Origin: a virus
IMG/VR virus record: IMGVR_UViG_3300021963_000292
Span: 1-38,886 of that record
Reading direction: 5' to 3' (one strand)
Length of the DNA stretch: 38,886 nucleotides
The notes under the pieces: model-generated
The model's database searches: none
The model's input: only the letters and a program-made list of their open reading frames with translations
Told to the model about the DNA's origin: nothing
Part shown: positions 9,251-22,146 of the stretch, in pieces
Layout of the letters: the number at the start of each line of letters is the position of its first letter
How positions within the stretch are numbered: the stretch's first letter is position 1
Program-made: the position numbers and the translations under genes

Positions 9251-10723
9251 TCAAACGACGCCGCGTATATTTCGGCGCAGCGCACCCGTCTTATTGGCCA
9301 TTGCATATCCGTGCATTATAGTTGACACATCGGTGGCTAGGCACAGGCAGAGAGCATCCGCTTTATCTGGCGATGGGAGGCCGCGCTTCTTCATGCTCTC
9401 CTTACTCTCGACTTGCATCTTGCCAGACGACGTAAAGGTATAGCGCGGTGACGCCAACTCGGCGAACAACTGCTCATCCTTCGGTATCTTTACATCGCGG
9501 TTGCCAAGCCACGCTTTACATTTGAACCACAATTCGGCGCGTAGGTTGGCGTAAGTCCCTTTCAGCGCCGGGCTTTCGGCGACGTTGATCCCTCGTGCTG
9601 GTAGACCTAATTCACGCAGGCGATCCAAGACGCCAGCCCCAAGCCCGATACTATCAACCAATATCTCGACAGGTTGTTCCGAAGGTGGCAGTGCCTCATA
9701 CTCGGCCACGACTGCGCCCGTAAGCTGCATCAGGTCGAGACCTTTCCAAGTCTGTATCTCTTCGACAACTGGTCCGCGCCGCTTGGCCAACGCAGACGCA
9801 TCGGACCCCATACGCGCAACGTCGAGACCCCACACACTTTTCGTCTGCTTTGCAATTTTAATTTCGCGGTTCATGGCTCCGTCAATCAACTCAACAGGGA
9901 TAACCGTATCTTCTTCGCGTGGCGGGAAGTTGCCCAGAACGCGAACATGGTAAGCTGGACTGTCCTCGCCATAACGTAATTGCATTTCTTTGACGAAAGC
10001 CTCTGATACGCGAGGGCTATCGACGCAACTAACGTGAAAGGTTTTCCACTCTCCTTTAAGGCGATTATGCGTATCGTAGAACAATCCGCTATTCCGGGTA
10101 GGGTTCCCAAGAAGTAGCGTGGTCGCGTTATGTCCCGACATAGAACCGGACGCGGCTTCGTACACACTCTCTGGAATACCTGAGGCTTCGTCGGCGACAA
10201 GCAATACGTTGTCGGCGTGGATACCCTGCAACGCTTCTGGCGTTTCAGCGCGGCTCGTTCTGGCGGAGATAAATGCTTCACTGGCTGCGGCCTTCAATTC
10301 AATGCGGTCGGCTTTGACTTCGATCAAGGTTTTAAGAACATCAGGAAGTTCATTCACCCATCGCTTCAGTTCCGCGAACATCGCATCGAACAACTGTGCG
10401 GATGTCGGCGCAGTCACGACCACCTTCACGGGATACCGCGTCAGGAAGTAATGCAGCATGGCCCAGCTTGCGGCTGTTGATTTGCCCACACCGTGGCCGG
10501 AGCGCACGCTGATCCTGCGGTTCCCGGCGCTGATCGCTTTAAGAAACTCGATCTGCCAAGGGTCTGGCTTCGTCCGGAGAATATCGCGCACGAACCCAAC
10601 GGGATCATCACGATACTTCTTTAGGAACACCAGAAAGAAGTTTGGCGATTGTTGGCTGCTCGTCGATAGCAGTTCGGCTGCCTCTTTAGCGGCGCGTTCT
10701 GGACTGGTTCTTGGCTTAGACAT
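9251..10723 (-). CDS. terL: Terminase large subunit
   Basis: The protein has 490 aa and is the ATP-driven DNA-packaging motor and headful nuclease. It shows Walker A RSGHGVGKS (residues 74-82), Walker B VLLVADE (173-179), a coupling-type LLLGNPT (about 203-209), and nuclease motifs starting WGLDVARMGSDAS with Asp301. DSIGLGAG and SPDKADALC complete the RNase H-like nuclease. The start follows GGGAGACGCTA and overlaps the recombinase stop by 8 nt. The partner small subunit is encoded 3.2 kb away on the other strand, an unusual separation. Confidence 0.96.
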   Translation of the reverse strand: MSKPRTSPERAAKEAAELLSTSSQQSPNFFLVFLKKYRDDPVGFVRDILRTKPDPWQIEFLKAISAGNRRISVRSGHGVGKSTAASWAMLHYFLTRYPVKVVVTAPTSAQLFDAMFAELKRWVNELPDVLKTLIEVKADRIELKAAASEAFISARTSRAETPEALQGIHADNVLLVADEASGIPESVYEAASGSMSGHNATTLLLGNPTRNSGLFYDTHNRLKGEWKTFHVSCVDSPRVSEAFVKEMQLRYGEDSPAYHVRVLGNFPPREEDTVIPVELIDGAMNREIKIAKQTKSVWGLDVARMGSDASALAKRRGPVVEEIQTWKGLDLMQLTGAVVAEYEALPPSEQPVEILVDSIGLGAGVLDRLRELGLPARGINVAESPALKGTYANLRAELWFKCKAWLGNRDVKIPKDEQLFAELASPRYTFTSSGKMQVESKESMKKRGLPSPDKADALCLCLATDVSTIMHGYAMANKTGALRRNIRGVV

Positions 10724-11390
10724 TAGCGTCTCCCTTCAATATACGGTAAACGGTTTGATGGCTGACTTCAATACCATGCTTCTTAGCTATGATCTTGGTG
10801 ATGTCACGGGAACTATAGCCCTTCAGCTTGGCGACCTTCATCGTCATAATGCTATCCTGCTGCTCGGTATCGACAACCAGCCGCGCCTTGCGGCCTGTGC
10901 CAACCTTCTTATACCCATAGGGAACCTTGCCGCCGCAGAAACCGCCAGCGTCCTTCTTGGCGCGCTTGCCAGCGATGACGCGCTCCTTAATCCGCCGACG
11001 CTCTTCACCGCTGAACACGGCCATGATCTCAAGCATGAAGCGGCCGTTCGGGTTGGCCCGATCCATCACATTGCCATATCCGTTGATAATCAAATTGATA
11101 CCGAGGTCTTCCCAGTCCCCAATCACGTTCAATGCATCACGGGCATCGCGGAACATACGATCTAATTTGGATACGATGACTGTGTCGTTTTGGCGCAGGA
11201 ACGCCAGCTTGCAGCCTTCTTCCCGGCGGAACAGTGGGATCGCCCCGGACACGCCCTTCTCTTCATAAATATGGTCGAGTTCCAGATTGTGTGTGAGCGC
11301 GATGCCTTGGATTTGGCGTGCCTGATCGTCCAGACTGGTATTCTCCACCTGATCCTCGGTCGAGACCCGCGTGTAACCGTAAACTGCCAT
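10716..11390 (-). CDS. Serine recombinase of resolvase/invertase size
   Basis: The protein has 224 aa. The N-terminal catalytic domain begins MAVYGYTRVSTEDQ with the nucleophile at Ser10 and continues with VIVSKLDRMFRDARD and ERRRIKERVIAGKRAKK, as in resolvase-family enzymes. A C-terminal Hin-like helix-turn-helix ends SHQTVYRILKGDA. The size fits resolvases and invertases, not large serine integrases. It is the first gene of the late block, with GGGAG before its ATG. Repeated ACTGTTACA motifs lie just upstream and could be its sites. Target and role (resolution, inversion or regulation) are unknown. Confidence 0.9.
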   Translation of the reverse strand: MAVYGYTRVSTEDQVENTSLDDQARQIQGIALTHNLELDHIYEEKGVSGAIPLFRREEGCKLAFLRQNDTVIVSKLDRMFRDARDALNVIGDWEDLGINLIINGYGNVMDRANPNGRFMLEIMAVFSGEERRRIKERVIAGKRAKKDAGGFCGGKVPYGYKKVGTGRKARLVVDTEQQDSIMTMKVAKLKGYSSRDITKIIAKKHGIEVSHQTVYRILKGDANV

Positions 11391-11419: not shown

Positions 11420-11657
11420 AGCACTGTTACAGGATACTGTTACATATTTGCAAGCGGAAAATTCATAATTTTTTTTTTCGGGATTATGTTAAATCCAAGG
11501 ATACCGGGGGTGGGGTCGGCCAAATCGATCTGCGTCAAGTTGTACACGCACGCGCCCCCCGTGTGCGCGCCCCCCGGGGGGTGTGTGCGCGTGCCCGCGC
11601 GCGAGCGCACACGTCAAAAACCACGGTTTTCTGCGGTTTTTTGGGTGTAACAGTGCT
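11420..11657. repeat. Inverted repeat AGCACTGTTACA flanking a 214-bp segment
   Basis: AGCACTGTTACA at 11420-11431 has an exact inverted copy at 11646-11657. A third partial copy, ACTGTTACA, lies at 11436-11444 in direct orientation. The copies are close to the serine recombinase start. They could be recombinase binding sites, operators, or chance repeats of moderate length. Confidence 0.6.
11560..11613. repeat. GC-rich inverted repeats
   Basis: CGTGTGCGC at 11560-11568 pairs with GCGCACACG at 11605-11613. Between them lies the perfect palindrome CCCCCCGGGGGG (11570-11581). The region could fold into a strong structure on either strand. It may isolate the two divergent transcription units. 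Confidence 0.5.
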
Positions 11658-13915: not shown

Positions 13916-14440
13916 ATGGCTGGACATATTAAACGTCGCACAATTGCATCCAACTTGGATAAGGTCGGCGAGAGTACGCTTTTAGAGAAGATCGCGTCGG
14001 GAATGACGATGGCGGGGTTGGCGCGGGAACTGCGCATCAGCAATCTTTCTCTCTACCATTGGATTAGGAAAGATGCCGACCGTGAAGAGCGGTTCCGGCA
14101 AGCACGATCCTTGGCGGCGGAGACATGGGCGGACGAATGTCTCGACATCGCAGACGCGGCGGACCATGTGTCGGCCAATGCAGATCGCCTCAAGATCGAG
14201 ACACGCAAATGGCTGGCGGGTGTGACAGCACCTGACAAGTTCCAAGCCAAGCCGACCACAGCGGTCCAAGTCAACGTAAACCAACTTCACCTTGATGCAC
14301 TGAGGCAGCTAAACTTGGCGGGGAGTGATACCTCATCTGATCACACCCTCATCGAGGAACAACCCGTCATCGAGATCAAACAAGTCGGCTCTCATAACCT
14401 CGATGCGGACGACTTACCCGATGTCTTTGACGACGATTAA
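13916..14440 (+). CDS. terS: Terminase small subunit-like DNA-packaging protein
   Basis: The protein has 174 aa. A helix-turn-helix at about 32-52 (MAGLARELRISNLSLYHWIR) is followed by ERFRQARSLAAETWADECLD and IADAADHVSANADRLKIETR, the pattern of the short phage TerS-like family that recognises packaging sites. The C-terminus is acidic (DADDLPDVFDDD). It lies on the strand opposite large terminase. The large inverted repeat begins 38 nt after its stop and may be its recognition site. The ATG follows AGGCAGG. Confidence 0.82.
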   Translation: MAGHIKRRTIASNLDKVGESTLLEKIASGMTMAGLARELRISNLSLYHWIRKDADREERFRQARSLAAETWADECLDIADAADHVSANADRLKIETRKWLAGVTAPDKFQAKPTTAVQVNVNQLHLDALRQLNLAGSDTSSDHTLIEEQPVIEIKQVGSHNLDADDLPDVFDDD

Positions 14441-14451
14441 CGGAAAACTGC

Positions 14452-14469
14452 AATCCGTGCATGGTTTGG
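14452..14469. repeat. Outlying copy of the CCGTGCA repeat
   Basis: AATCCGTGCATGGTTTGG differs by one base from the perfect 18-bp copies in the adjacent dyad. It has no symmetric partner on the right side. It shows that the element is also used as a direct repeat. Confidence 0.8.
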
Positions 14470-14477
14470 TCTCTTCC

Positions 14478-14759
14478 GGCCGGGTTTGAGAAAATCCGTG
14501 CACGGTTTGGCCTTCTTAAAAATGGCGGTTTTCTGCAATCCGTGCATGGTTGGGCCGGAAGTGCATGGTTTTTTCAAGAACGCTCTATACATTCTGGGTA
14601 TTTACAAACCCTATATATACATATAGATATATAAATACCCCGTGTATAAGGGCCTCTTGGTGGGAAAAGTCGGCACTTCCGGCCCAACCGTGCACCGATG
14701 GCAGTTTTCTGCGGGTTTCCGCTCACACCAAACCGTGCACGGATTTATTAAACCCGGCC
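14478..14759. repeat. Nested inverted-repeat array, candidate origin or packaging site
   Basis: Several inverted pairs share one centre (14618.5). The outer pair is GGCCGGGTTT (14478-14487) with AAACCCGGCC (14750-14759). AATCCGTGCACGGTTTGG (14493-14510) has an exact inverse at 14728-14745. A 30-bp arm (14535-14564) has an inverse at 14673-14702 with three mismatches, including GGGCCGGAAGTGC exact. GGGTATTTA (14596-14604) pairs with TAAATACCC (14632-14640) around an AT-rich core. A degenerate half-copy lies at 14561-14572. Symmetric binding sites around a melting-prone centre are typical of replication origins; a terminase site is the main alternative. Confidence 0.85.
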
Positions 14760-14783
14760 CAACCCGGCCCGAAAGGATTTTAC

Positions 14784-15284
14784 GTGACAATACGCCAGAC
14801 TTTGCAAGAGACATTCGACTATAACCCGGACACCGGATCGCTGACTTACCGCAAGCCGAGAGGATCACTCCCCGCCGGACGCCCAGCAGGCACGGCGGTA
14901 GCCAGCGGTTACAACGTCAAGTATAACGGTTCGTATATTTTGGCCCATCGGATTATCTGGAACATCATGACCGGCGAATGGCCGCAGCACCCTGTCCGCC
15001 ATGTCAATGGTAACAAACTGGACAACCGCTGGAGCAATTTAACTGTTGCTGCGCCTTTACGTGAGCGCGATCCTGTAAGCCGCAAGCCAATCAAGTCCGT
15101 TACTAATCGCCGTGTTGCGCATGGCGTGGGTCGTGTCGTTTTTGATAAGATGGGTGTGACATTGTTTGAAGCCAACGCAATTATCAGCGGAGAACGCGTT
15201 CTTATCGGCCGCTTTGAGACAGAAGCCGAGGCGCGTGACGCATTTAAGAACGTAACGGGATACGCCGCGCCGGGTTCTCTGTAA
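14784..15284 (+). CDS. HNH homing-type endonuclease with AP2-like C-terminus
   Basis: The protein has 166 aa. The N-terminal part (FDYNPDTGSLTYRK) leads to an HNH core, LAHRIIWNIMTGEWPQHPVR then HVNGNKLDNRWSNL. The C-terminal part (GVTLFEANAIISGERVLIGR, FETEAEARDAF) matches the AP2 DNA-binding fold found in phage homing enzymes. GTG at 14784 is chosen because AAAGGA lies 6 nt upstream and the longer frame runs back through the repeat array. It sits directly after that array and ends at a bidirectional terminator. It is probably a free-standing selfish element. Confidence 0.85.
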   Translation: MTIRQTLQETFDYNPDTGSLTYRKPRGSLPAGRPAGTAVASGYNVKYNGSYILAHRIIWNIMTGEWPQHPVRHVNGNKLDNRWSNLTVAAPLRERDPVSRKPIKSVTNRRVAHGVGRVVFDKMGVTLFEANAIISGERVLIGRFETEAEARDAFKNVTGYAAPGSL

Positions 15285-15288
15285 AAAA

Positions 15289-15309
15289 GAGGGGGCGCTA
15301 TGCCCCCTC
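15289..15309. terminator. Bidirectional terminator at a convergent junction
   Basis: An 8-bp stem (GAGGGGGC with GCCCCCTC) closes a 5-nt loop. It is followed by AACTTTTT on the plus strand and by TCTTTTTTAC on the minus strand. It ends both the HNH-AP2 gene and the minus-strand early block, overlapping the stop codon of the latter. Confidence 0.9.
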
Positions 15310-15618
15310 AACTTTTTGTATCAGCCGATCAAGATACCATCGGGCCTTCTTCAAGTCCTCCAACGGCTTGGCCTTCTTCTCGTAGCGCCAGAGATATTTG
15401 AGGACATTAGCTTTCAACGCGCCGCGAAAGCCTTCGTCGCTTAGCGCGGCCTCGATAGCCTCAATGGCCTCGATGCCACCGCTGTTATAGTGCTGCGGTT
15501 TATCCACTGGATCATAGATCGACGACACCTCGTCATTCAGCACATCCCGAATGTCCTTATACCTCATATAGTCCTTGCCATACATCGCACCACATCCTTT
15601 CTCGCCGGGCCGGGTCAT
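15298..15618 (-). CDS. DUF3310 (SaV-like) protein
   Basis: The protein has 106 aa. The signature is DKPQHYNSGGIEAIEAIEAA, then GFRGALKANVLKYLWRYEKK and ALEDLKKARWYLDRLI-like text near the C-terminus, all typical of the small phage DUF3310 family sometimes called SaV-like nucleotide kinase. The biochemical role is not settled. Its ATG overlaps the primase-helicase stop by 4 nt (ATGA) and it is the last gene of the early block. GAGG precedes the start. Confidence 0.85.
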   Translation of the reverse strand: MTRPGEKGCGAMYGKDYMRYKDIRDVLNDEVSSIYDPVDKPQHYNSGGIEAIEAIEAALSDEGFRGALKANVLKYLWRYEKKAKPLEDLKKARWYLDRLIQKVEGA

Positions 15619-18098
15619 GCCTCGTCCTCATCGACATCCCGCCCCTTGATCTCAATCTGGAAGCCGAAAAACTCGTCGGCTTGGTCATCCATCATGGCGT
15701 TGATGACCATGTGATCTTCATCGCCGATGAGAAGTTCAAGACCACGGAACACCCGCTTCGTTCGGGTCGCCCGATCCCTTGTGGCTTCATAGCCCCTGAT
15801 CTTCATCTCATTGTTAAACTTACGCTGGGACCAGTCGCGCCCCTTGGCCTCGTTGCTGTCCTTGCACCAATCGCGGAAGTCATTGAACGCCTCATTGGTC
15901 GTCATCTCATTGTCAACGCCAACAACGCAACGCTCCGTGATCCAGCGGGCCAAGGCATCCTCTCCCGCGAGATAGTCCTCGGTAGCTTGGATAACGACCG
16001 CTGGCGGGTTCAACCCCTCAGACAGCCAAGTCTTAGCCCCCTCGATAATCCACGCCAAGATCGCCGGGTATTCCTCTTTCAGCTTGTCCGGCAAATCCAT
16101 GTCCTTACGGACGGGCTTCGTCTCAAATGGGATCAGGTGCATACGCCGCCGCATGGCGTCATCGACGTTAGTAATCTCTGGCTTGGTATTGCCCGCGATC
16201 ACAAGCGTAAACTGTGGCTGAAACTCAAACAAATCCTGCCGCATAAAGCGCGCACTGATCTTGTCCCCACCAGTCAGGCTCTTCACCTTGGCTTCATCCC
16301 ACTTGCGCGACGGATCAATCTCCTGCGCGTGAACGAGCCGAGCGCCCATCAACGACGCCAACTCTGTAGGGTGACGCTGCGACGACGACGCCAAGAAAAC
16401 GTCCGCACTAGCCACGGTGGCATAATCGCCAAGGATGCCGCCTATCGCACCAAGGAACGTCCCTTTGCCATTGCCGCCGGACCCGTGGGCGAAAGCCAGG
16501 ATATGCTCCTTGGTAGAGCCTGTGGAACTATAGCCCGCCAACCTTTGAAGGTAGCCAATCAACTCAGCATCACCGTTGCAGGCCTCATTGAGAAACGCTT
16601 GCCATTGGGGCGCTGGTTTGCTGAAGTCCGCCTCGACCGATGTGCATTTTGTGCACATGCGAGAACGATCATGGGGGTGCAGCACACCCGTCTTCAAGTC
16701 CACCATCCCCGATTTGGTGTTGAGGATATAGATGTCGGCGTCTAGCTGCTCGGTGGTTGCCTGCATGGATGGTTCTACCGCAGCCAGCTTGGCCACATTG
16801 GCGATCACATTGTATGACGCCACACGCTGCGCGATCCGCTCAGCCTTTTGCGGGCTTTCGATGTTGGCCAACGCCTCGGACGATGCCTGCGCGCAAACCT
16901 TACGGACGATGGAGATGTGCTTGTTCGCCACATCCTTCGCCCACTTGTTGCCGTCCCACGCAACCCAGCCCATGCCGCCAACAACGTATCGAATATCCGA
17001 AACGTGTAAACGAGCAACGCGCTGCGCCAAAGCAATGTCACTATACTCAATCGGCGTTTCCCCGGCCGACGCTACCACTCCAAAGTCATCGTCGGAGAAG
17101 TCGGTCACGTCGAACTCATCGACCTCCCGCTTGTGCCCAAACGATGCCGCCTTGTCCGCCAGCCAGTCCCAACCCAACTCATAGGGCGGGTGCATACGAC
17201 CAAAGTCCGCCTCGATAGTATCGAGCGTGTTAACCCCGTCTTCCCAACTGGCCGCCCACGCTTCGAATATCTCGAACGCATCGGCCTCATTGTCCGGGCC
17301 GCACGCTGCCTTGATGGCATAGCCCATGCGAATATAGTCATCGCGGTCAGGAAAATGCTCAGTCTTGTTTGGGATCGCAGCAACAGCCGCCTGCACATGG
17401 GCAACGCTTGGCGCAATGAGCGACGCCTGATCTACCGACTGCCGCTCGACCGCCTTCTGGGCTGTCTTGTCGGCGTGGATAATCTGGCAGCCCATCATCT
17501 CCAACGTCTCGGTCAGATCGGCAAAGAACTGCTCGATCTTTTCCCGCGTGACCAGCTTCAACCCAGCCGGGCCGCGTTGTGTCAGGTCCACATCGAGACT
17601 GTACGGCTCCTTAGTGATAGGGTGGATACCGCCGATGACGTACTGTTGCCCGTCCCCTAGAAATTCTACAAGCTGCTCGACGCCCCGGTCATCACGGAAC
17701 CGCACCTGCATACGGCCAATCTTCTCGTCGGTGCGATACATGAACAGCCGCTTGGGATACCGGCCGATCCGCATCGGGGCTTTGCCCAATGCCTTGACCG
17801 CCATATCACCAATGACCCTAGCCAGCCCCTCGTTAACAACATCAATGTCAACCGCAGGATATTTGCTTGCCTTCAAGCCGATATTAGCGTGGCTGCGGTC
17901 CCACCGCTCCACATCATTCGGCGTTGGTGTATAGTCCTGCCAGCCATAGCCGCCCCATGTGCCCTGTGCGTTCTGCCGACCCGGTGCTTTGCCCGCTTGA
18001 TCGGCTTGGATTTTGGACATGGCCGACAACTCGGCGTTGGGCGGAATAACGGACACGAGATCGGTGAACCCAATCTCATAGAGCGTCTTAAATTTCAT
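15615..18098 (-). CDS. Primase-helicase (AEP Prim-Pol plus D5-like SF3 helicase)
   Basis: The protein has 827 aa. The N-terminal archaeo-eukaryotic-type primase shows DIDVV (Asp84, Asp86) and YVIGGIHPITKEPY. A PriCT-like linker follows at about 285-340 (DDYIRMGYAIKAACG). The C-terminal superfamily 3 helicase shows Walker A GSGGNGKGT near residue 535, ARLVHAQEIDPSRKW, TLVIAGNTKPEI and DDAMRRRMHLIPF (arginine finger region). It should prime and unwind DNA at the fork together with the family A polymerase. The start follows GAGGGA and overlaps the previous stop (TGATG). Confidence 0.92.
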   Translation of the reverse strand: MKFKTLYEIGFTDLVSVIPPNAELSAMSKIQADQAGKAPGRQNAQGTWGGYGWQDYTPTPNDVERWDRSHANIGLKASKYPAVDIDVVNEGLARVIGDMAVKALGKAPMRIGRYPKRLFMYRTDEKIGRMQVRFRDDRGVEQLVEFLGDGQQYVIGGIHPITKEPYSLDVDLTQRGPAGLKLVTREKIEQFFADLTETLEMMGCQIIHADKTAQKAVERQSVDQASLIAPSVAHVQAAVAAIPNKTEHFPDRDDYIRMGYAIKAACGPDNEADAFEIFEAWAASWEDGVNTLDTIEADFGRMHPPYELGWDWLADKAASFGHKREVDEFDVTDFSDDDFGVVASAGETPIEYSDIALAQRVARLHVSDIRYVVGGMGWVAWDGNKWAKDVANKHISIVRKVCAQASSEALANIESPQKAERIAQRVASYNVIANVAKLAAVEPSMQATTEQLDADIYILNTKSGMVDLKTGVLHPHDRSRMCTKCTSVEADFSKPAPQWQAFLNEACNGDAELIGYLQRLAGYSSTGSTKEHILAFAHGSGGNGKGTFLGAIGGILGDYATVASADVFLASSSQRHPTELASLMGARLVHAQEIDPSRKWDEAKVKSLTGGDKISARFMRQDLFEFQPQFTLVIAGNTKPEITNVDDAMRRRMHLIPFETKPVRKDMDLPDKLKEEYPAILAWIIEGAKTWLSEGLNPPAVVIQATEDYLAGEDALARWITERCVVGVDNEMTTNEAFNDFRDWCKDSNEAKGRDWSQRKFNNEMKIRGYEATRDRATRTKRVFRGLELLIGDEDHMVINAMMDDQADEFFGFQIEIKGRDVDEDEA

Positions 18099-21055: not shown

Positions 21056-21237
21056 TTCAGGTGATCCCCTTCTGCAATCCGATCCGCCAACCAGCGGGTG
21101 CTGCGTTCGAACATGGACATTTGCCCACTGCGAAGCCATGCAATGATGGCGTCTTTCTCGTTAACAACAGGCGTAGCTTCCGCCACAACCGGCTGTGCTT
21201 CAACTTCAATATCAACAATCTTCTTAGGACGTGCCAT
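21052..21237 (-). CDS. 61-aa early protein, partial paralogue of 19276-19479
   Basis: The protein starts MARPKKIVDIEVEAQPVVAE, an Ala/Val/Glu-rich leader, and ends DAIIAWLRSGQMSMFERSTR then WLADRIAEGDHLK. The AIIAWLR and IAEGDHLK elements recur in the 67-aa protein at 19276-19479. Its start overlaps the stop of the GcrA-like gene (TAATG). Confidence 0.7.
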   Translation of the reverse strand: MARPKKIVDIEVEAQPVVAEATPVVNEKDAIIAWLRSGQMSMFERSTRWLADRIAEGDHLK

Positions 21238-22001
21238 TAGATTAACTCCTTGATTTTAAACCCTTTTGTCTCAGCGTAGGCGATGAGGTCGTCGAGCCAC
21301 AACACCCCTTTTCCTGAGACAAAATACTGATTGACGCCACGATGAGGCACATCGTTAACGTCACCCCATGTATGAGACGACTGCTCGTACATCTGTATGT
21401 CCGCACGATGGACGCACGCATGGTTTCTGCGCAAAAACTGCGCAGCCTCCGCTGCAATCAACTTCGTGTGGCCCTTAAACTCTCGACGCGGGACCGTGCA
21501 TTCTTCCTCGGTCTTAATCGGAACTGGCTTCGCCATCTGCGCACGCCGATCCAACATCGACAACGGCGCAACGCCTACCTCTTCAAGCCAGCCTTTTATG
21601 GTAACATGACTTGTGTTGTAGAGCCGCATCAATTCGGCGCGGGTCATGGTCGCTGCCATCTTGTGGAAGTTAGCCGGGACGGCCTTCTTGCGCACGCCGG
21701 TAACTACCTTCTTGAGTTGGAGTTCCCGCATCCAGCGAAAGATCACAGTCCTAGCGCGACCATAGTGTTCCATGAGTTGCGTCACGTTCATCGTGGTCAA
21801 CATCTCCGCCAAATCATCTGGTGCGGGAGCCTTCTCAACAACGAAGTCCCGCTTCAAACCCAACTTTCTACGCCGACTATCAATCGCGTTTGCGGTACGA
21901 CCAAGCGCCCGTGCGATCTGCGCGGGCATCATGTTAGCCGCGTAAAGTTCTTTTAGTTTGGCGTCCTCTTCGGGCGTCCATTCATTAATTCTGTAAGCCA
22001 T
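21237..22001 (-). CDS. GcrA/SANT-like DNA-binding protein
   Basis: The protein has 254 aa. Residues 6-48 (WTPEEDAKLKELYAANMMPA then QIARALGRTANAIDSRRRKL) match the SANT/Myb-like DNA-binding fold of GcrA and related regulators. Two further HTH-like segments follow (LMEHYGRARTVIFRWMRELQ and LMRLYNTSHVTIKGWLEEVG), and a C-terminal winged or KilA-like region near KGVLWLDDLIAYAETKGF. It is the first gene of the early block, so a regulator of early transcription is likely. ATG 22001 follows AAGGGAGATT. Confidence 0.75.
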   Translation of the reverse strand: MAYRINEWTPEEDAKLKELYAANMMPAQIARALGRTANAIDSRRRKLGLKRDFVVEKAPAPDDLAEMLTTMNVTQLMEHYGRARTVIFRWMRELQLKKVVTGVRKKAVPANFHKMAATMTRAELMRLYNTSHVTIKGWLEEVGVAPLSMLDRRAQMAKPVPIKTEEECTVPRREFKGHTKLIAAEAAQFLRRNHACVHRADIQMYEQSSHTWGDVNDVPHRGVNQYFVSGKGVLWLDDLIAYAETKGFKIKELI

Positions 22002-22146
22002 AATCTCCCTTACATTTCTACTGCCCGCCTTGGGTGGCACAGGTTGAATATCGAATGCAAGAACTTTTTTTAGTTGACGGGGCTATGCGACTTGTGCCAG
22101 CTACGGGGAAAGCAAACGTGACACCGACGAAAAAGAGGGAAAGAAC
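22002..22146. promoter_or_regulatory. Divergent promoter region of the early and replication blocks
   Basis: This 145-bp gap separates two divergent transcription units and must hold both promoters. A TTGACG at 22074-22079 on the plus strand could be a -35, but the element 17 nt later (CCAGCT) is a poor -10. A run of seven T lies just before it. No clear minus-strand promoter is visible. Confidence 0.5.

Follow-up and report, generated by a model that had tools for sequence, protein, structure and literature searches.

What is the function of a 282 bp nested dyad that lies in a phage genome between the gene for the small terminase subunit and an HNH endonuclease gene? The window, i.e. the whole stretch of 38,886 bases that was analysed, has a podovirus-like gene content (portal, scaffold, head protein, TerL, serine recombinase, exonuclease, helicase and lysis genes). 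An initial annotation had described the dyad as a candidate origin or packaging site, and its placement between the two genes was borne out by gene annotation (Table 1).

The dyad and its short repeats

All four nested inverted pairs that had been proposed were found: GGCCGGGTTT (14478-14487 / 14750-14759), AATCCGTGCACGGTTTGG (14493-14510 / 14728-14745, 18 of 18 positions matching), a 32-nt arm pair (14533-14564 / 14673-14704, 29 of 32 matching, 91%) and GGGTATTTA (14596-14604 / 14632-14640). Their centres fall at 14618, 14618.5, 14618.5 and 14619 and thus coincide within ±0.5 bp with the proposed common centre of 14618.5, without sharing one exact point. The alignment had been called non-accidental, and this is confirmed. 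The 282-nt region folds with -156 kcal/mol, far more stably than shuffled sequences (-82 +/- 5.5 kcal/mol, z -13.4, none of 200 as stable), and the arms match each other with an E-value of 1e-23 (blastn). The dyad is the most stable 300-nt stretch anywhere in the window. A search for a known RNA family returned weak chance matches alone, far below the gathering scores.

The dyad is better regarded as an iteron array than as a hairpin, with six plus six ten-base iterons mirrored about an AT-rich core. All twelve iterons are present in the window, one of them with a mismatch, and they reach beyond the 14478-14759 assigned to the dyad, from about 14454 to 14771. Five of the right-half iterons mirror the left ones within 1 bp, while the outermost is 10 bp off. 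When sites were placed at random, a six-of-six mirrored arrangement arose in 7 of 20,000 trials.

Pairing across the dyad is 82-85% within the iterons. When iteron flanks are excluded, it is 45-50% in the spacers (23-25% in a shifted control) and 44% in the cores (control 32-34%). The symmetry is therefore due mostly, but not wholly, to the iterons, and it is chiefly the mirror-order repetition of short sites that produces the nested dyad. The excess complementarity of the spacers, seen at 14454-14771 and in relatives, may be caused by inverted duplication, by unrecognised sites or by a cruciform.

Table 1. Position of the array, its parts and the neighbouring genes in the window.
Feature	Position	Strand	Remark
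TerL	9251-10723	-	
Small serine recombinase	10716-11390		adjoins TerL; in all relatives covering the region
Small terminase subunit TerS (Sf6-type)	13916..14440	+	array starts directly after; neighbour, not reader
Complete iteron array (proposed replication origin)	14454..14771		6 iterons per side, core type A; same place in relatives
Left half	14457..14566	+	six iterons reading towards core
Left iterons, by start	14457 GTGCATGG; 14477 CGGCCGGG (one mismatch); 14498 GTGCACGG; 14542 GTGCATGG; 14552 GGGCCGGA; 14561 GTGCATGG		
AT-rich core (proposed melting region)	14580..14650		bounded by GGGTATTTA/TAAATACCC
Right half	14671..14770	-	six iterons reading towards core
Right iterons	14671-14676, 14680-14685, 14690-14695, 14735-14740, 14755-14760, 14765-14770	-	
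HNH endonuclease gene	14784..15284	+	beside array only in core type A relatives
Nucleotide-kinase-like gene	15298..15618	-	between array and primase; linkage control
Primase-helicase, D5-type (proposed origin-binding initiator)	15615..18098	-	3' end faces array
C-terminal winged-helix-like domain, residues 712-793 (proposed iteron reader)	15720..15965	-	class-linked residues 733, 762, 763, 772, 774
Codon of residue 774	15777-15779	-	
Codon of residue 762	15813-15815	-	
GcrA/D5-like regulator	21237-22040		

Conservation and wording of the array in relatives

A scan of viral contigs for TerS yielded 80 loci. These relatives are metagenomic genomes, mostly fragments, and a search for DNA relatives among named phages found none. 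A conserved dyad was to be looked for in related phages, and the array is indeed conserved directly after TerS: it follows the TerS stop codon in every relative whose contig extends far enough. The loci examined typically carry two opposed iteron sets (6+6) around a core with 63-73% AT. In each of 23 genomes or contigs the array is the sole iteron cluster, and with one array per genome an assignment as MITE or other multi-copy repeat was rejected.

Two types of core could be distinguished. Type A, which is found in the window, has the structure GGGTATTTAC ... AT-rich ... AAATACCC and is followed by the HNH gene (in all 9 type A genomes and in no type B genome); type B has AGTAACA ... TGTTACT and lacks this gene. 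Type A cores average 73% AT over the central 60 bp, compared to 46.5% for the window. The six iterons per side are located at 161 (right: 152), 141, 120, 76, 66 and 57 bp from the centre in type A arrays and typically at 137, 117, 106, 94, 63 and 54 bp, on both sides, in type B arrays, where the gaps of about 20, 11, 11, 31 and 9 bp are near whole helical turns.

The wording of the iterons is uniform within each phage and varies between phages as a set. Most phages use a GTGC-class wording, GTGCA(C/T)GG with GGGCCGGG and sometimes GTGCCGGG; the other class has GGGACG or GGGACA. The fourth iteron base is C in all GTGC-class words (GTGCA, GTGCC, GGGCC) and A in the GGGAC words. Each core type occurs with both wordings.

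Some minor features were noted on the way through these loci. The inverted repeat AGTAACA..TGTTACT is conserved in type B cores (L003-L082, first 350 bases past the TerS stop codon) and may be bound by a second protein. In L004, L005, L007 and L074 the array is followed by an additional reading frame on the plus strand, preceded by a stretch with GTCCCC/GGGGAC words that resemble the iterons of the same phage. The contig end of L059 carries an apparent Illumina adapter sequence (AATGATACGGCGACCACCG).

Covariation with the primase-helicase

The initial annotation had named TerS and the GcrA-like protein as candidate readers, and neither has a column that separates the two array classes. The same TerS sequence (L029, L030, L033, L034, L035, L036, L038, L039) accompanies GTGC and GGGAC arrays and both core types, and TerS is therefore excluded as specificity determinant. 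When 17 shared proteins were compared in 23 genomes or contigs, class-separating columns were found only in the primase-helicase, at residues 735, 762 and 774, all within the C-terminal 95 residues; the GcrA-like regulator and 14 other shared proteins were thus rejected as readers. A gene confined to one array class was sought and none was found.

The primase-helicase gene ends about 1 kb from the array, which lies downstream of its 3' end. The protein has D5_N (E 2e-26) and DUF5906 (2e-12) domains, PriCT_2 above the cut-off and a weak Prim-Pol match. Over 66 loci, residue 774 is Lys in 21 of 21 GGGAC phages and Arg in 45 of 45 GTGC phages, while at residue 762 every GTGC phage has Asn and 19 of the 21 GGGAC phages have Thr. 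The normalised mutual information (NMI) with array class is 1.00 for residue 774, 0.88 for 762, 0.79 for 763, 0.74 for 772 and 0.71 for 733, against maxima of 0.32 in TerS and 0.28 in the kinase gene. A second scan with the primase as query gave 28 contigs outside the first set, which belong to the same phage group and may include near-duplicates of it; here residue 774 agrees with array class in 19 cases and disagrees in none, the other 9 contigs ending before the array. In all, iteron wording and a few residues of the C-terminal domain vary together in about 85 related phages.

Trees were computed for 58 loci. Mapped on the TerS tree, array class switches 13 times; the count is likewise 13 for the remainder of the primase fragment and 11 for the kinase gene, but only 2 when the tree is built from the domain DNA. 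Independent pairs, whose connecting paths were supported and did not overlap, show a joint change of class and residue 774 in 9/9, 10/10 and 6/6 cases, with none contrary. Simple linkage of array and primase in one block was rejected on the 11 class changes of the intervening kinase gene: joint transfer as a single block is disfavoured because this gene would be dragged along but does not follow. Some joint transfer of array and domain, which are only about 1 kb apart, is possible. What ties iteron specificity to the C-terminal domain of the proposed initiator is covariation, in 66 loci, in 19 of 19 cases of the second set and in repeated joint switches.

One pair of phages confines the specificity switch to few residues. 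L068 and L072 do not differ at residues 733, 762 or 763 and agree over most of the recognition helix, but L068 combines H772 and K774 with GGGACGGG iterons (GGGACGGGTTTG), and L072 combines P772 and R774 with GNGCCGGG iterons (GNGCCGGGTTTG). Among GGGAC phages, those with His772 carry GGGACG arrays, and those with Tyr/Pro772 mostly carry GGGACA arrays (L010, L033, L039; exception L047).

In an AF2 model of the C-terminal 245 residues (mean pLDDT 41, about 80-81 for residues 732-772), three helices are followed by two strands; residues 762/763 belong to the last of these helices, and residue 774 to the first strand of the wing. The best structural match of the domain in this model is the C-terminal domain of ASFV PrimPol (8ww7, 20% identity over 64 residues), with a Z-score of 7.4, and values under 8 alone can reflect a common arrangement. 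The next matches are winged-helix proteins, including several subunits of the origin recognition complex. A model of the 82-residue domain alone has helices and no wing, and a structure search with it returned unrelated folds only. Pox_D5 is the only Pfam family hit in all 43 members, with a score below its cut-off. The origin-binding domain (OBD) of P4 gave no sequence match to the domain; no P4 OBD entry was among the structural candidates aligned, which excludes nothing. The primase C-terminal profile did not match TerL relatives such as Sinorhizobium phage phiM5, an empty result that carries little weight. In an Anaerolineales MAG chromosome (L274:5001-7652, CP070811.1), this phage primase continues up to a run of N and is followed by other sequence, probably a scaffolding artefact.

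A proposed replication origin and its alternatives

We consider it very likely, with a probability of about 0.87, that the dyad is the replication origin of the phage and that its twelve iterons are bound by a predicted winged-helix domain at the C-terminus of the D5-type primase-helicase that the phage itself encodes. The origin reading is strongly supported because the array is conserved in relatives, mirrored 6+6 and co-evolving with the predicted DNA-binding domain of the primase-helicase. Of the initial alternative, origin or packaging site, it is the origin that stands, with initiator sites flanking an AT-rich melting region, while the packaging site does not. As judged from sequence, the locus is very probably an origin of the SaPI/PICI/P4-alpha type with a natural, repeatedly switched specificity code. 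To our knowledge, no origin has been described before in this phage group.

Site layout, conservation, coupled evolution and fold resemblance were computed here, and the following order of events is proposed. The C-terminal domain would bind the iterons; two hexamers, one per array half, would then assemble, melt the AT-rich core and travel outwards in opposite directions, with synthesis started by the primase domain. The choice of iteron word would depend chiefly on wing residue 774 (Lys for GGGAC, Arg for GTGC/GGGCC), with the recognition-helix residues 762/763 and residue 772 contributing, and phages would switch word and reader together. More speculatively, the Lys/Arg switch may decide whether A or C is read at position four of the iteron (GGGAC vs GNGC), so that phages repeatedly change the "password" of their origin, word and reader residues together, and replication-exclusion types result; we regard this extended version as rather doubtful. 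If true, the exclusion types would keep relatives or satellites that infect the same cell from exploiting one another's initiator.

Other explanations are far less probable. The position directly after the TerS gene in all relatives would suit a packaging initiation site (cos/pac) read by TerS, and other phages are known to have multiple cosB-like sites next to terS. This reading is nevertheless highly improbable, given that identical TerS proteins occur with GTGC and GGGAC arrays and both core types, that no TerS column tracks array class (maximum NMI as given above) and that the class changes so often on the TerS tree. Just as improbable is transcriptional control, with operators of a phage regulator such as the GcrA/D5-like protein flanking core promoters and the primase being either that regulator or linked by chance. 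The AT-rich cores do look like promoters and the type B inverted repeat could be an operator, but the GcrA-like regulator has no class-linked column, the array is found past the 3' end of the primase gene and not at its promoter, and twelve mirrored sites exceed what an operator needs.

It is very unlikely that the long hairpin itself is functional, as RNA or cruciform, rather than the iterons. The very stable fold, the pairing of spacers above chance and the dependence of pRN1 on the integrity of a stem-loop downstream of the gene for its primase-helicase (PMC4234260) speak for it. However, spacers and cores pair far less well than iterons, and a wording that is uniform per phage and tracks the predicted DNA-binding domain would not be demanded by pairing alone. 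A mobile or homing element, i.e. a palindromic insert travelling with the HNH gene, is barely credible: wherever core type A occurs that gene does too, and vice versa, but type B phages have the array without it, and the array is present as a single copy in a single place in the 23 genomes or contigs. The distribution of the HNH gene suggests a homing gene without an intron that is carried along by the origin; such a passenger may be present and would not explain the array.

A replication origin of the proposed kind has counterparts among satellites and plasmids. In PICI origins, which follow pri-rep, an AT-rich region is invariably flanked by two sets of iterons (PMC6092414). As in the pri-rep-ori modules of PICI/SaPI (SaPI Rep; E. 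coli EcCICFT073 Pri-Rep), the initiator here would be a primase-helicase with the origin downstream of its gene. However, those elements are satellites and not podovirus-like phages; here the array lies between small terminase and kinase genes, about 1 kb from the primase gene, has a strict 6+6 mirrored layout and switches specificity repeatedly among close relatives. The P4 alpha protein likewise unites primase, helicase and a C-terminal winged-helix origin-binding domain that acts on repeats, as summarised in PMC4234260 from Ziegelin 1995 and Yeo 2002, whereas the fold of the domain is predicted here. Its primase is of the TOPRIM type, while an AEP/Prim-Pol type is weakly indicated here, and P4 has a second cis region, crr, besides ori, as opposed to one array per genome.

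For winged-helix-tailed primase-helicases of pRN1 and some phages, a stem-loop downstream of the gene has been proposed (PMC4234260). ORF904 of pRN1, with its 100-bp stem-loop origin, and phage BIP-1 combine an AEP primase, an SF3 helicase and a C-terminal winged helix, as is predicted for the protein here, with a large downstream dyad, as found here; iterons, of which the dyad here is built, are reported to be absent from the stem-loop of pRN1 (PMC4234260). The tails of ASFV PrimPol C962R and poxvirus D5 resemble the domain by the best structural match and the sub-threshold Pox_D5 score, respectively. In the parts of PMC10516667 consulted, the C962R tail is described as P4-OBD-like, with DNA binding by the tail unclear and no iteron origin reported for it, in contrast to the array found here. 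The locus fits the known kind of primase-helicase with a downstream iteron origin, the new aspects being this phage group and its natural series of specificity switches.

If the proposal holds, an origin and its reader have been identified from sequence alone in an abundant uncultured phage group, together with dozens of natural pairs with switched initiator specificity. The code would help to predict the origins of D5-type primase-helicases elsewhere, and the 6+6 layout would be a concrete substrate for double-hexamer loading. The GC skew of the window does not turn at the array; it seems to track gene direction and is uninformative as an origin marker. The lowest-GC 60-mer of the window is located at 11434, just past the serine recombinase gene, and may be a terminus or a recombination site.
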